The notes beneath the pieces were generated by a model that had not been told where the DNA came from, did not search any database, and saw only the letters and a program-made list of their open reading frames with translations. The position numbers were made by a program, and so were the translations under genes. From an uncultured Holophagaceae bacterium (lineage in GTDB: Bacteria; Acidobacteriota; Holophagae; Holophagales; Holophagaceae), in NCBI GenBank assembly GCA_903937385.1, contig CAIZZF010000013.1, forward strand, positions 124,001-188,000: 64,000 bases of DNA, written 5' to 3'. This document shows positions 57,653-63,652 of this stretch, one piece after another (position 1 is the first letter of the stretch; every line of letters begins with the position of its first letter).

Positions 57653-59794
57653 CTACTTGAGGAACCCGCGCTTCCGCATGAGGGCGTCGGTGTTGACATC
57701 CCGGCCGCGGAAGGCCTTGAAGGCCTCGGCCGGGTCCTTGGTGTTGCCCACGGCGAGGACCTCCTTGCGGAGCCGCGCCGCGACCTTCGGATCCCAGGGG
57801 CCCTGCCCCTCCAGGAAGGCCTGCCAGGCATCTGCGGTCAGGGCATCGCTCCAGAGGTAGGCGTAGTAGCCGGCCTCGTAGCCCCCCACGCCGCCGCTGA
57901 AGATGTGGGCGAACTGCGGGATCCGGTGGCGCATCACGATCTCGGTGGGCATGCCCAGCCGGGTCAGCTCGTCCTTCTCGAAGGCCGCCATGTCCAGCGA
58001 CTTCCCGCCGGCCATGTGCAGCTTCATGTCGATGACCGCTGAGGCCAGATACTCCATGGTGGCGAAGCCCTCGTTGAAGGTCCGGGCCCGGTTGATCTTG
58101 TCCAGCATCGCCTTGGGCAGGGGCTTGCCCGTCTGGTAGTGGAGCGCGAAGCGGTTGAGCACCTCGGGCGTCTGGAACCAGTGCTCGTTGATCTGGCTGG
58201 GGAACTCCACGAAGTCCCGGGCCGTGTTGGTGCCGGAGACGCTCGGGTAGCTGGAGTCGGACAGCAGCCCGTGCAGGGCGTGCCCGAACTCGTGGAACAT
58301 GGTCGTGGCATCGTCCCAGGAGATCAGCACAGGCTGGCCGGGAGCGCCCTTCACGAAGTTCGAGTTGTTGGAAACGATGGGCGTGATCCGTTTGCCCATG
58401 TGGGTCTGGGTCCGGTACTCGTTCATCCAGGCCCCGGAGCGCTTGCCCTCCCGGGCGAAGGGATCGAAGTACCAGAGGCCCACGTGGGCGCCCTTGGCGT
58501 CCGTGACTTCGTAGGCGGTGACGTCCGGGTGCTGGACCTCGACGTTGCTGATCTTCTTGAAGTGCAGGCCGTAGAGCTGCCCGGCGGTCCAGAACATGCC
58601 CTCGCGGAGCTTGTCGAGCTGGAGGTAGGGGGTGACCTCGTTGAGGTCCAGGTCGTACTTCGCCTTCCGCTGCTTCTCGGCGTAGTAGCGGTAGTCCCAG
58701 GGGGCCAGCTTGAAGGTGCCGCCTTCCTTGGCTACCAGGGCCTGCATGTCCGCCACATCCGCCTGGACCTGGGCCACACAGGGCTTCCAGACCGCTTCGA
58801 GAAGGGCCACGGCCCGGTCGGGGGTCCCGGCCATGGACTGCTCCACCGCCCAGTGGGCGTGGGTGGCATAGCCCAGCAACTGGGCCCGCTCGAAGCGGAG
58901 CTTGAGCATCTCCACCGCCACGGCCTTGTTGTCGGTCTTGTCGCCGTTGTCGCCGCGGCTCACGAAGGTGCGCCAGACCTTCTCCCGCAGCTCGCGGTTC
59001 TCGGCGTAGGCCAGGAAGGGATCGGCCGAAGAGCGGGTGTTGTCGATCACCCACTTGCCCTTCAGTCCCCGCTGCTCAGCGGCCCGGGCCGCGGCGTCCT
59101 TCAGGTCCTTGGACAACCCCGCAAGACCAGCCTCGGACTCGATCAGCGTGTAGGGGTTCGACTCGTCCGCCAGCAGGTTCTGGCCGAACTGGGTGCCCAG
59201 GGTGGCCATGCGCTGGTTCAGCTCCCGAAGGCGGGCCTTCTGTGGGCCGCTGAGCTTGGCGCCGCTGCGCACGAAGTTGGTGTAGTACACCCAGACCAGG
59301 CGCTTCTGCTCGGCCGTGAGCTTGGACTTGGCGGCACTCAGGTGGACGGCCTCGATGCGCTTGAAGAGGCCCTCGTTCTGCGCGATCTCATCGCCGAAGG
59401 CCGCGAACTTCGGCGACATCTCCTTCTCCACGGCGGGAATGACGCCCTTGTTCAGGGTGCTGACATGGACCCCGTAGAGGATGTTCAGGCGATCCAGGGC
59501 CGGGCTGGACTGCTCCATGGCCTGGATGGTGTTGGCGAAGGTGGCGGGCTTGGGTTCACTGGTGATGCGCTGGATGGCGTCCCGCTGGGCCTGCATGGCC
59601 ACGGCGAAGGCCGCCGGGAAGTCCTCGGGCTTGACCTTCGACCAGGCGGGCACGCCGCCATAGGGGCCTTTCCAGGGTGCGAGCATCGCAAAGTCCTTCT
59701 TGGAGGAAGTCAGGGGTTGGGCGGCACGGACCGGGCTGCCGCCCGCCACGATCAGCAGGGCAAGGGTCATGGCGGCGAGGGGTTGAGTGGACAT
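57653..59794 (-). CDS. M3-family metallopeptidase (oligopeptidase/dipeptidyl carboxypeptidase type)
   Basis: 713 residues, with a signal peptide (LAAMTLALLIVAGGSPVRAA), so probably periplasmic. Zinc motif TMFHEFGHALHGLLS with the third ligand in DFVEFPSQINEHW. Cleaves oligopeptides or C-terminal dipeptides. Length is usual for Dcp (about 680-720). Start at 59794 has GGGAGCC. Confidence 0.93.
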   Translation of the reverse strand: MSTQPLAAMTLALLIVAGGSPVRAAQPLTSSKKDFAMLAPWKGPYGGVPAWSKVKPEDFPAAFAVAMQAQRDAIQRITSEPKPATFANTIQAMEQSSPALDRLNILYGVHVSTLNKGVIPAVEKEMSPKFAAFGDEIAQNEGLFKRIEAVHLSAAKSKLTAEQKRLVWVYYTNFVRSGAKLSGPQKARLRELNQRMATLGTQFGQNLLADESNPYTLIESEAGLAGLSKDLKDAAARAAEQRGLKGKWVIDNTRSSADPFLAYAENRELREKVWRTFVSRGDNGDKTDNKAVAVEMLKLRFERAQLLGYATHAHWAVEQSMAGTPDRAVALLEAVWKPCVAQVQADVADMQALVAKEGGTFKLAPWDYRYYAEKQRKAKYDLDLNEVTPYLQLDKLREGMFWTAGQLYGLHFKKISNVEVQHPDVTAYEVTDAKGAHVGLWYFDPFAREGKRSGAWMNEYRTQTHMGKRITPIVSNNSNFVKGAPGQPVLISWDDATTMFHEFGHALHGLLSDSSYPSVSGTNTARDFVEFPSQINEHWFQTPEVLNRFALHYQTGKPLPKAMLDKINRARTFNEGFATMEYLASAVIDMKLHMAGGKSLDMAAFEKDELTRLGMPTEIVMRHRIPQFAHIFSGGVGGYEAGYYAYLWSDALTADAWQAFLEGQGPWDPKVAARLRKEVLAVGNTKDPAEAFKAFRGRDVNTDALMRKRGFLK

Positions 59795-59805: not shown

Positions 59806-60852
59806 TCAGGGTTGGTGCTTGCGTTGGGATTCGACCTCTGACTCAGGCCGGAAGAACAGCCTCGCCATCCAGATCAGGACGACCAGCATGAGTATGAAGC
59901 AGACCAGGAAAAGCAGGAACGGCGACCACTGGGGCGCGATCCGCCACGCGGCCAGGTCGAAGCTGCCGCGGAGCCGGACCAGCCGGAGCACATGGCGCAG
60001 ATAGACCATGCCGAACACCGAGAGGAACAGACAGAGGCCCGAGAGCCAGAAGGCCTTCCGGGCATGGAAGTGGAGCGCCACCAGAGACAGCGCCAGGGAC
60101 ACCACGAGGACGGGCATGGCCGGGGTGCGCATGAAGGGAGCTAGGTCCGCGTCCAGGGTCAGCAGGTAGAGGAACCCGACCCCGGCGGCGGCGACCATGC
60201 CACCCACGAAGGCCGCGCGCCCGGTGGCGGCCATGGCGGGCGACTTCCGCCCCAGCACAGTCACGAAGAAGCCGCCCACGGTGAGGGCGCCCAGCACCAT
60301 GTGGAGCCAGCGCAGGCCGTAGGTGCCCAGGGCGGGATTCCAGACCCAGCCCGACTGGTTCTTCGCGTAGAGCGCCCGGAGCAGGTCCGGCTGCTCGGCC
60401 AGGCCGAACACCGAGCTGTAGACCAGGCTGGTGTAGAGCAACCCCAGGGCCGCCAGGGCCAGCAGGCCCAGACTCACCTGCCCGGTCCGGTGGGCCTGGA
60501 AGGAGGTCCGGTAGAACGCGTAGTAGGCCATGATCACGGCCCCGATCACGGCGAGCCAGAACCAGCCGCTGACAATGGTGGCCGCATAGACCTGCCGGGG
60601 ATAGACCAGCTGCAGGAACAGCAGGGGCGCCACGCCCAGGGACACCGTGGCAGCGGTGGCCGCGGGCAGCACCCGCGCGAAGCCCGCGGCGTCGGGAGCG
60701 GGCCACTGCTTGCGGAACCCGGCCCAGAGCGCGATCAGGGTCCCGCCGAGCAGGCAGCTCATGGCCGCCAGGTGCAGGGTGAGGGTCAGCAGGTGCAGGG
60801 TCGTCACCAGCCACAGGGGGGCGGAGATGAAGTGGTAGTCCGGGAGCGTCAT
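59806..60852 (-). CDS. Membrane subunit of a bd-oxidase-like complex
   Basis: 348 residues with about nine helices. It starts LPDYHFISAPLWLVTTLHLL and has histidines in early helices (LHLLTLTLHLA) and GLRWLHMVLGALTVGGFFV that could bind haem. It does not show clear CydB motifs; the pattern resembles a second CydA-like or accessory subunit. The start overlaps the stop of the CydA-like gene (ATGA), so the two proteins are made in step and very likely form one complex. Confidence 0.7.
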   Translation of the reverse strand: MTLPDYHFISAPLWLVTTLHLLTLTLHLAAMSCLLGGTLIALWAGFRKQWPAPDAAGFARVLPAATAATVSLGVAPLLFLQLVYPRQVYAATIVSGWFWLAVIGAVIMAYYAFYRTSFQAHRTGQVSLGLLALAALGLLYTSLVYSSVFGLAEQPDLLRALYAKNQSGWVWNPALGTYGLRWLHMVLGALTVGGFFVTVLGRKSPAMAATGRAAFVGGMVAAAGVGFLYLLTLDADLAPFMRTPAMPVLVVSLALSLVALHFHARKAFWLSGLCLFLSVFGMVYLRHVLRLVRLRGSFDLAAWRIAPQWSPFLLFLVCFILMLVVLIWMARLFFRPESEVESQRKHQP

Positions 60853-62360
60853 GGCTTGGCTCCTTGGCCGAGGGCCTGGAGGTAGGTCACCAGCGCCTTC
60901 CGTTCGGCGGCGTCCCCGGTGTAGGCGGGCATGCCCTCCCCCAGGCTGGCCGCCATGTCGAGCATGCCGCTCAGGTCCTCGGCGCTCTGCCCCGCCAGGG
61001 ACTTGGCCTTGTCACTGGCGGTGCCGACGGCGTGGCACTTGCCGCAGCGCAGGTCGTAGGCCCGGCGCCCCAGGGCGAGGCCCTCGACCGGATAGATGGC
61101 CGCCAGGGGCCGGTGGTCCGTGCGCCGATAGAGGTGGTCGGCGATCTGCTCGGCCTCGGCGGGTGTGCCCAGGAAGGGCGGCATGTGACCCCGGAGGAGG
61201 TGCGCCCCCTGGATGAGCGCCAGGATGTAGGCGCGGTCCGCACCGGCCAGCGCGGGCCGGAGGGCCTTGTAGCCATCCAGCGTGTGGCAGCTGCGGCAGG
61301 CGTGGCGGAACAGGTCGGCGCCATCATCCCCCGTGCGGTAGGTGATCTGGGGCAGGAAGCCGTCGCGCCGGTAGTTGGCCGTCTCCGCCACCTCGGCGCC
61401 GTTGCCGTACATGTAGCCGGTCAGGATGTAGGGCTTGCGGAGGGACTCCCGGGACCACTCGAAGGCCCCGAACCAGGCCATGCCCAGGGCCATGAAGACC
61501 AGGGCCGCGACGGTGCCGAAGCGGCGGGGCGCAAGGATCACCAGGGCCAGCACCCCCGCCCCCAGGGCAGCCGCCAGCCAGAGCGAAAGCACGATGGCCC
61601 GGAGGGGCGTCGGCATGGTCTCGAGGGCCTTGGCAGTAACCGCCGCGGGGATGGCCTTCCAGTACCAGGCCTGGGCCAGCGCGGTCACCGCCAGCCCCAC
61701 CACCGCCCAGCCCGCAGCCTGCCGGACCGTGCGTGCCTTGAAGTCGTCCGCCGCCAGGCGGGAGGCCACCAGCAGGGCGTAGAGCCCCGCCAGCATCACG
61801 CAGACGCCAGTGCGGAGCACCAGCGAGGGCCAGTAGGTGGGGTTGAAGAAGCCCTGCCAGAAGTCCCCCGTGACCAGCCAGCGGCCCGGGGTGAGCATGA
61901 AGGTCAGGATGCCGTTGATGACCACCAGCGACAGCCAGGCGGCCACGAAGTAGATCCAGCCCAGGGTGAGGTGGGCCTTGGCGGTCAGCCGCTTCCAGCC
62001 GTAGAAATAGAGCATCGCCGCGGCAATCTCCACCACAAAGAAGGTCCACTCCGTGGCCCAGCCCCAGACGTAGTTGTGGATCAGGGCCTCCGTAGCGGCC
62101 GGCGCCAGCAGCCCGATCACGAACCAGATGCCCACACCGGTCAGGGCCCCGGCCACCAGGGTCGCCATGGCGAAGAACTTGGAGAGCTGCTCCAGGAACG
62201 CCAGGCGGACCGTGTCTCCGTCCCGGCGGGCCAGGGTCTCGTTCACCACCAGGTAGAGCCCGCCCCCGATGGCGAAGTGGGACACGAACACATGGAACAC
62301 GGCGATGACCGCCATCAGCACGCCGTAGCCGATGGGCTGGTCCCAGAACGGGTAGTGCAT
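60849..62360 (-). CDS. CydA-like oxidase subunit fused to two cytochrome c domains
   Basis: 503 residues. The first 320 resemble the N-terminal half of CydA: VFHVFVSHFAIGGGLYLVV (His23 at the CydA His19 position), LVAGALTGVGIWFVIGL, TEWTFFVVEIAAAMLYFYGW. No Q-loop is seen, and I find no His in the helix that normally holds CydA His186. The periplasmic end has two haem-c sites, CRSCH (355) and CGKCH (439), each with a later Met ligand (GHMPPF, EGMPAY). It probably takes electrons from a cytochrome c rather than a quinol. AGGAGG precedes the start. Confidence 0.8.
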   Translation of the reverse strand: MHYPFWDQPIGYGVLMAVIAVFHVFVSHFAIGGGLYLVVNETLARRDGDTVRLAFLEQLSKFFAMATLVAGALTGVGIWFVIGLLAPAATEALIHNYVWGWATEWTFFVVEIAAAMLYFYGWKRLTAKAHLTLGWIYFVAAWLSLVVINGILTFMLTPGRWLVTGDFWQGFFNPTYWPSLVLRTGVCVMLAGLYALLVASRLAADDFKARTVRQAAGWAVVGLAVTALAQAWYWKAIPAAVTAKALETMPTPLRAIVLSLWLAAALGAGVLALVILAPRRFGTVAALVFMALGMAWFGAFEWSRESLRKPYILTGYMYGNGAEVAETANYRRDGFLPQITYRTGDDGADLFRHACRSCHTLDGYKALRPALAGADRAYILALIQGAHLLRGHMPPFLGTPAEAEQIADHLYRRTDHRPLAAIYPVEGLALGRRAYDLRCGKCHAVGTASDKAKSLAGQSAEDLSGMLDMAASLGEGMPAYTGDAAERKALVTYLQALGQGAKP

Positions 62361-62512: not shown

Positions 62513-63652
62513 TCAGACCGGAAGCACCTGCGGAATCTCAAGGACGAATAAGCTGCCCTGAGGGGCATTGGCCTCCACCCAGATGCGCCCTTCGTGGGCT
62601 TCAGCCACGACCTTGCAGAAGGCCAGGCCGATTCCCGAGCCGGAATGGGCCGCGTGCTCTCCCTGATGGTGCCGCACGAATTTCTCGAAGACCTGTTCCC
62701 GCATGTGTTCAGGAATACCTTGCCCCTGGTCCCGCACCGCCAGGCGCACGCCATCACTCGTGGAGTAGGCCTCGATCCGGGTGTGACTGCCAGAGGGTGA
62801 ATACTTCATGGCATTTTCGACGAGATTCATCAGAAGCCTGCGCAGGAAGTCCTGGTCCGCCTCGATCTCCAGTCCGGAGGGGCAGACCCAGGCCAAGTCG
62901 TGCTTTCGGGAGTGGGCCTGGGATTCCATCTCCTGCAAGAGCCCGGGAAGCCAGGTGCTCAGCTGGATTCGGGTCTTATGGAGATCCAACCCCAGCTCCT
63001 CGGCCTGGCCAATGTCGAGGATGTTCTGGATCATCCGCCCCATCTGGCTGCCCGTGTCCCGGAGCCGGCGTAGTTGCACCTTGTGGGCAGGGGTGTTGTC
63101 ATCCCGCTCGCTGAGGAGTTCCAGCCCCACTTGGATCGCCGAGAGCGGATTCTTCAGGTCATGGACGATGAATTGGAACAGCTGTTCCCGCTGCTTCTGC
63201 AGCTCAAGCAGGCTGTCCCTCTCCCCCTGAATATCCGCCTGGAGCCGCTTGAGTCGCATGAGGCTCCGGATCCTGACGATCAGCTCCCCCGAAAGGACAG
63301 GTTTCCGCAGGAAATCATCACCCCCAGCCCGGAAGGCCAGGGTATGGATGTCCGCCCGTTCATCTCCGGTGAGGAAGATGATGGGCAGCAGATCACCTTG
63401 CGGCATCTGACGGATCCTCTGGCAGACTTCCAGCCCATCCATCTCTGGCATCTGGATGTCCAGGAGGATCAGGTCCGGGGAACAGGAGGCAAGCTGGGCC
63501 AGCGCCTGGGGACCAGCCTCTGCAGTTTCAACCTGATAGTGCCCCCGTTCCAGCATGGCCCTGAGGCTCCGGCGCGACAGGGCATCGTCATCCACCACGA
63601 GTACCTTGGCACCGTGGTCTGCCCTGCGAAACGGGACCGGCTGGTTATCCAT
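62513..63652 (-). CDS. Response-regulator/histidine-kinase hybrid
   Basis: 379 residues. Receiver domain first (about 15-130): VLVVDDDALSRRSL, phospho-Asp in LILLDIQMPEMDG, Lys in FLRKPV. A coiled coil leads to HisKA with His in FIVHDLKNPLSAIQ and an ATPase domain (LMNLVENAMKYSPSG, VRDQGQGI, GSGIGLAFCKVV). No membrane segment, so it is a cytoplasmic relay. No partner is adjacent. The upstream region is AT-rich. Confidence 0.9.
   Translation of the reverse strand: MDNQPVPFRRADHGAKVLVVDDDALSRRSLRAMLERGHYQVETAEAGPQALAQLASCSPDLILLDIQMPEMDGLEVCQRIRQMPQGDLLPIIFLTGDERADIHTLAFRAGGDDFLRKPVLSGELIVRIRSLMRLKRLQADIQGERDSLLELQKQREQLFQFIVHDLKNPLSAIQVGLELLSERDDNTPAHKVQLRRLRDTGSQMGRMIQNILDIGQAEELGLDLHKTRIQLSTWLPGLLQEMESQAHSRKHDLAWVCPSGLEIEADQDFLRRLLMNLVENAMKYSPSGSHTRIEAYSTSDGVRLAVRDQGQGIPEHMREQVFEKFVRHHQGEHAAHSGSGIGLAFCKVVAEAHEGRIWVEANAPQGSLFVLEIPQVLPV

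Follow-up and report, generated by a model that had tools for sequence, protein, structure and literature searches.

Two overlapping genes on the minus strand of the stretch of DNA analysed here (64,000 nucleotides, hereafter the window) probably encode a membrane-bound oxygen reductase that belongs to the cytochrome bd superfamily and would be driven by cytochrome c, as judged from residue conservation and structure models, and the pair most likely falls within the non-quinol, OR-C-like branch of that superfamily. The first gene, A (60849..62360, minus strand; 503 aa), encodes a CydA-like catalytic subunit with eight predicted transmembrane (TM) helices followed by two cytochrome c domains, and the second, B (59806..60852, minus strand; 348 aa), a predicted second CydA paralogue (CydA'-like) with nine predicted TM helices. 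The first-pass annotation of this DNA, which had read the pair as a bd-like complex fed by cytochrome c, is largely borne out. Both open reading frames lie where it had placed them, and the four-base overlap that it reported is, in the sequence, an ATGA joining the stop of A to the start of B (60849..60852, minus strand), an arrangement that likely couples their translation. Purifying selection acts on both frames, with a dN/dS of 0.12-0.28 for A (seven comparisons) and of 0.16-0.32 for B (four comparisons), which makes it very unlikely that they are chance ORFs.

Gene A encodes a diverged CydA of the cytochrome bd superfamily that carries two cytochrome c domains. The Pfam family Cyt_bd_oxida_I matches residues 15-232 with an E-value of 5e-12 (45.6 bits against a cut-off of 26.2) and is matched by 50 of 51 members of the A family, while Cytochrome_CBB3 matches two stretches of A with an E-value of 3.9e-15. 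The structure model of A, computed as a single chain from 51 sequences after a similarity filter (mean pLDDT 83.9, pTM 0.79), consists of eight long helices between residues 12 and 308 followed by two small domains, and could be aligned with subunit I of E. coli bd-II (PDB identifier 7ose_A) with a VIA Z of 29.3 and an RMSD of 3.3 Å over 313 positions; Foldseek matched it to 5doq_A with an E-value of 3.5e-6. These Pfam, Foldseek and model matches bear out the first-pass reading of this half as CydA-like and speak against its being unrelated to CydA. Searches of the PDB sequences with phmmer, started from a single A or a single B, matched no bd chain, such single-sequence searches being too weak.

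The membrane core of A (residues 12-308, TM1-TM8, helices taken from the model; 61437..62327, minus strand) is followed by a first cytochrome c domain, delimited by Pfam Cytochrome_CBB3 (residues 344-410; 61131..61331, minus strand), and by a second one, delimited by structural match (residues 426-501; 60858..61085, minus strand). The two CxxCH haem-c sites that had been noticed earlier lie at residues 355-359 and 439-443, occupy identical positions in near relatives, and make A the only closed ORF of at least 100 aa in the window with such a motif. In an alignment of 77 rows (the window and 76 relatives from the best 80 of 109 loci), the Met of the first domain (Met393) is present in all 77, and that of the second (Met477) in all 16 rows with letters there. 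The C-terminal region (residues 426-502) resembles cytochrome c6 with a modest Z of 8.2 over 74-76 aligned positions, and the CxxCH and the Met support the cytochrome c reading despite that score. TM9 of CydA is absent from A, and cytochrome c stands in that part of the chain. The N-terminus of CydA is on the periplasmic side, where c haems are attached, and since the number of TM helices in A is even (eight), its c domains are expected on the side of the N-terminus.

Judged from the alignment and the model, the ligand positions for the two active-site haems and the glutamates of the proton path are retained in A, and the b558 and quinol sites are lost. Residues H23, H28, E41, E104, E111, R183, R308 and P310 are invariant in 77 of 77 rows, R304 and E305 in all 76 ungapped rows, and position 144 is Ser in 67 rows and Thr in 10. 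H23 corresponds to E. coli H19 in the profile alignment, and E111 precedes the Trp of a Gly-Trp by 11 residues, like E107 in E. coli. E104 takes the position of E99 by motif and spacing, where hhalign gives a gap; the E104-E111 spacing is seven residues versus eight in E. coli, where Leu101 of TM3 is described as an insertion (PMC6853902, in the excerpts available). At the end of the core, E305-x-x-R308-K-P310-Y of A matches E445-x-x-R448-Q-P450-W of E. coli, the general motif being E-x-x-R-[QK]-P-[WY]. The profile match between E305 and E445 is weak (P 3.9), and the equivalence is supported by the motif and by the ends of the structural alignments, at which A is offset from E. coli by 140 residues with 7ose and 6rko and by 136 and 138 with 6rx4 and 7oy2. 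An initial assignment of E445 to E301 was given up, since E305 agrees better with both the motif and the structural offsets. The active-site positions H19, E99, E107 and E445 are present in A, with the matches to E99 and E445 being mainly motif-based.

In E. coli, haem b558 is ligated by His186 and Met393 (PMC6853902, in part). In canonical CydA, H19, E99, E107, S140, H186, E257, M393, E445 and R448 are found in 33 of 33 sequences and K252 in 32, whereas the H186 position of A is L182 in the window, followed by R183, and holds Leu in 36, Thr in 16, Met in nine, Val in seven and other residues in the rest of the 77 rows, with His in none; nor does TM7 of A have a conserved His or Met among these rows. 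The alignment check suggested in the first-pass annotation, which pairs H23, E104 and E111 with H19, E99 and E107, found no counterpart of H186 or M393, in agreement with the earlier observation that A lacks a His186 equivalent. The further observation that no Q-loop can be recognised also stands, since the TM6-TM7 linker of the model is only 14 residues long (237-250), and the quinol residues K252 and E257 of canonical CydA sit in the loop that is missing. Neither an intact Q-loop nor the full set of ligands for three haems is present in A, which is set apart from the canonical quinol bd oxidases (qOR) by having neither H186/M393 nor a Q-loop with K252/E257.

Profile comparisons identify the partner B as a second CydA paralogue, not a CydB, and this CydA paralogue in place of CydB is the new point of our analysis. 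Window B is without a match in Pfam and NCBIfam. The B-family profile could be aligned by hhalign with the A family (P 95.0, E 3.8e-8, 268 columns) and with canonical CydA (P 86.6, E 4.5e-6, 210 columns), each E-value being for one comparison. No hhalign match to CydB was found (P 1.6), by which a CydB identity is ruled out; the fold alone does not separate CydA from CydB. In plain HMM searches, the B profile picks up two frames of the A type (E-values 3e-6 and 2.1e-5), and the A profile picks up five frames of the B family in other Acidobacteria (E-values from 1.4e-6 to 3.7e-4). An iterative B search drifted into canonical CydA, and a partner-only profile was used instead, which in a plain HMM search reached canonical CydA with an E-value of 0.016 in the first round; canonical CydA was not among the matches listed for its second round, and a single-sequence B profile matched nothing in canonical CydA loci. 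Taken singly, two of 56 B members match Cyt_bd_oxida_I (E 1e-4 at best). The single-chain model of B (56 rows after a similarity filter; pLDDT 94.5, pTM 0.91) has the bd fold, with a tie between 6rx4_A (VIA Z 26.6, 329 aligned) and 7ose_B (VIA Z 26.7, 317 aligned), and its TM6-TM7 linker (232-244 in the model) is short as well. The link between B and canonical CydA is thus drawn from the profile-profile comparison, the cross-hits with A, the two Pfam matches among 56 members, and the fold. The first-pass annotation had seen no clear CydB identity in the partner, which holds in that no CydB profile matches, and is to be amended in that the partner can be placed with CydA. One B-family frame elsewhere (L191:4038-5579) has a CxxCH of its own, and this partner possibly carries a c haem.

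Residue conservation suggests that B has probably lost the oxygen chemistry, with histidines kept at haem positions, and that it may bind haem. In an alignment of 72 rows (the window and 71 of 75 partner matches, over 250 aa), T23, H27, Q81, Y89, Y114, R181 and H184 are invariant, M282 is present in 70 of 70 and R286 in 69 of 69 ungapped rows, and TM3 has no conserved Glu by consensus or by columns. H27, H184 and H287 of window B fall on the positions of H19, H186 and E445, and the His at the H186 position, in an R181-x-x-H184 motif, is found in 72 of 72 rows. Canonical CydA gave no usable profile alignment with the C-terminal half of B (P 0.3), and the E445 position was instead placed via A (P 93.3, E 2.7e-7). 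Position 287, which corresponds to it, is Glu in 41, His in 25, Asp in two, Arg in one and a gap in three of the 72 rows; Glu is found in Nitrospirota, Elusimicrobia, Thermodesulfobacteriota and similar rows, and His in the clade of the window and in other Acidobacteria, Verrucomicrobia and Calditrichota rows. The earlier suggestion that one haem b has been lost is borne out for A, whose b558 site is gone in 77 of 77 rows, but as B keeps a His at the H186 position throughout, that haem may still be present in the A-B complex. The invariant R181-x-x-H184 of B, together with the absence of a His at that position in A, raises the possibility that the low-spin haem moved from A to B. The pair would then be a pseudo-symmetric CydA-CydA' oxidase with a haem-carrying CydA', receiving electrons via covalent c haems, and the Glu-to-His change of the window's clade (H287, E445 position) would tune a second haem in B; we consider this scheme plausible, though somewhat short of an even chance. 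To our knowledge, none of the bd oxidase structures solved so far carries haem in both subunits.

Within the cytochrome bd superfamily, the families OR-C and OR-N were reportedly described by Murali, Gennis and Hemp (ISME J, 2021). OR-C comprises, as we take it, the c-haem forms without a quinol site, and both traits of this definition, absence of the quinol site and a fused c haem, are found in A. The placement of A in OR-C is by exclusion and by this definition, and OR-C fits A best when the families are compared by description, while B shows the trait of OR-N, or CydAA', in that the partner is a CydA paralogue. Excerpts of three papers (PMC10839748, PMC12342949, PMC13189123) cite the three families qOR, OR-C and OR-N, and describe OR-N as a likely user of cytochrome c in the form CydAA', for which experimental confirmation is lacking. 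As far as these excerpts go, OR-C and OR-N resemble A in having a CydA-like core without a quinol site and a proposed use of cytochrome c, and OR-N resembles the A-B pair in its proposed assembly from two CydA paralogues. The bd-like protein of Nitrospina, in which the quinol residues are likewise described as absent, has 14 TM helices, whereas A has eight and fused c-haem domains (PMC3578206, in part). The bd-like oxidases of Nitrospira and Nitrospina and the TO complexes of Manganitrophaceae share with A-B divergent CydA-like subunits and presumed periplasmic donors, but in the excerpts available they are encoded in larger gene clusters, whereas A-B is a two-gene unit without further conserved neighbours (PMC6606698, PMC3578206, PMC9040806). 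Canonical CydAB (qOR; E. coli bd-I) shares with the pair the fold of both subunits and, with A, the H19, E99, E107, E445 and R448 positions; unlike it, A is without the Q-loop and H186/M393 and has cytochrome c in place of TM9, and the partner is CydA-like. The likeness of A to the cbb3 and caa3 cytochrome c oxidases, in which c-haem domains also feed a membrane oxidase, is functional only, as their catalytic subunit is a haem-copper protein unrelated to bd. Our literature search found no paper on a c-haem-fused CydA, and OR-C only in second-hand mentions.

The pairing of A with B is widely conserved. A search of genome contigs matched 131 stretches, of which 109 encode a relative of A and the best 80 were kept; among these, the nearest A sequences elsewhere are 93-94% identical and come from MAGs of Holophagaceae (Acidobacteriota). 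B directly adjoins A in 74 of the 76 usable loci, after leaving out three that are cut (L018, L076, L081) and one that is truncated (L035), and no B was found near A in the other two (L042 and L058). Among 37 extra regions from Acidobacteria and from the window's own genome, chosen for CydA-like matches and in part from genomes that are also in the near-genome set, A is present in 28 and B in 26 of these; no B was found in L178 or in L188, where A is a fragment. Of 41 near genomes, 18 have B and these are the same genomes that have A, the weak A-only matches in G034 and G036 being in fact ordinary CydA. Within the genus the pair is patchy, with 12 of 25 genomes encoding it. In two loci (L163, L164) B precedes A, and about 1.5 kb separates the genes. 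Neighbour clusters other than B, counted with functions unannotated, occur in no more than eight of the 80 loci (best 80 of 109), a count that is a lower bound given that the greedy choice of ORFs overlooked some known B frames.

In the tree of A (77 rows), the window falls in a 16-row clade (100/99) with two c haems, whose members include Holophagaceae, Verrucomicrobia and Calditrichota. Nineteen rows carry the label 'two c haems', which on this tree needs two changes, most simply two gains; L022, L028 and L033 have their second CxxCH near residue 405, versus 439 in the window's clade, and probably gained it independently. A superfamily tree (20 of 77 A, 15 of 72 B, 17 of 33 CydA and seven of eight class D rows, with a 304-aa frame left out) recovers clades for A (100/97), B (100/99), canonical CydA (100/100) and class D (99/99), so that the A sequences group together, separately from both canonical CydA and class D, whose proteins are longer; the branches are long and the order among the clades was not used. 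Class D is a third CydA-like class from Acidobacteria genomes (L157-L162, L168), with open frames of 477-775 aa that have no CxxCH, and its regions gave no B-family match. In L161 a 304-aa frame with two CxxCH comes after the class D frame. Class D is possibly of the OR-N type.

In the enzyme that we propose, a periplasmic electron carrier would reduce the c haems on A, and these would hand electrons directly to the haem pair of the active site, bypassing b558; in the clade of the window, the second c domain would lengthen the electron entry wire. B would replace CydB as a scaffold, and a haem that it may bind would perhaps act as a relay and help electrons on to the active site. Protons would be taken from the cytoplasm, with one charge moved per electron without a pump, like in the quinol bd oxidases.

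The nearest A sequences, among the best 80 of 109, are from Holophagaceae, the family of the metal reducer Geothrix, which could also be reconciled with the pair being a menaquinol:cytochrome c reductase, or its reverse, where quinone would bind in B and the c haems would be the exit or entry point for electrons; such an enzyme could, for instance, supply extracellular electron transfer or serve reverse electron flow. In keeping with this, the excerpts available place ubiquinone-8 in E. coli CydB at positions homologous to the haems of CydA (PMC6853902) and propose a quinone-linked role for the Nitrospina bd-like proteins if they bind quinone (PMC3578206). However, the Q-loop is missing from A and the corresponding linker of B is short too, and the invariant O2-site glutamates of A would be needless in a plain quinol-cytochrome c reductase, which makes such an activity unlikely.

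Some relatives of A, among the best 80 of 109, are from records of Thermosulfurimonas, Thermodesulfatator and Desulfobulbus, lineages of anaerobes, and O2 respiration is therefore not assured in those lineages. Along with the patchy presence in the genus and with the tolerance of bd oxidases to NO and their action as peroxidases, this would suit the same chemistry serving detoxification, in which O2, NO or peroxide is removed with cytochrome c in anaerobes or facultative anaerobes and not for growth. We nonetheless rate it an improbable role, as the retained proton-path glutamates suggest energy conservation and no conserved stress neighbourhood accompanies the pair in the best 80 of 109 loci, where B alone exceeds the eight-locus count. 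That A-B is a non-catalytic electron-transfer or sensing module, for which the vanished b558 site of A and the lack of a conserved Glu in TM3 of B could be cited, is very improbable given that relatives from many phyla show no variation at the remaining active-site positions of A.

The host genome (3.68 Mb in 30 contigs, 97.76% complete) also encodes a canonical cydAB and three COX1 genes, one of which lies about 4 kb from an NrfD-type gene. A-B therefore need not be essential for breathing, and the cytochrome-c-driven oxidase would be one of several in this genome. The gene upstream of A encodes a response-regulator/histidine-kinase protein (62513-63652) and has the same orientation, and an M3-family peptidase (Dcp-like; 57653-59794, minus strand) lies 11 bases downstream of B. 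In the neighbour clustering (best 80 of 109 loci), the peptidase adjoins the pair in L003 and L004 as well; it is possibly co-transcribed with A-B in the window's genus and outside the module elsewhere. A Pfam scan of twenty other ORFs of the window (819-55804) returned ordinary families, such as L-lactate permease, glycine cleavage P subunits, serine dehydratase, LptF/G, UbiA and histidine kinases.

The family libraries used here miss half of the pair, in that window B matches nothing in Pfam or NCBIfam. As a compact two-gene unit, A-B offers a target for asking whether cytochrome c can serve as electron donor to the bd fold, and whether a haem-bearing copy of CydA can act as the second subunit of a bd enzyme. 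If the proposed function is true, a cytochrome c oxidase would have been built outside the haem-copper superfamily, in many phyla and mostly in uncultured bacteria.
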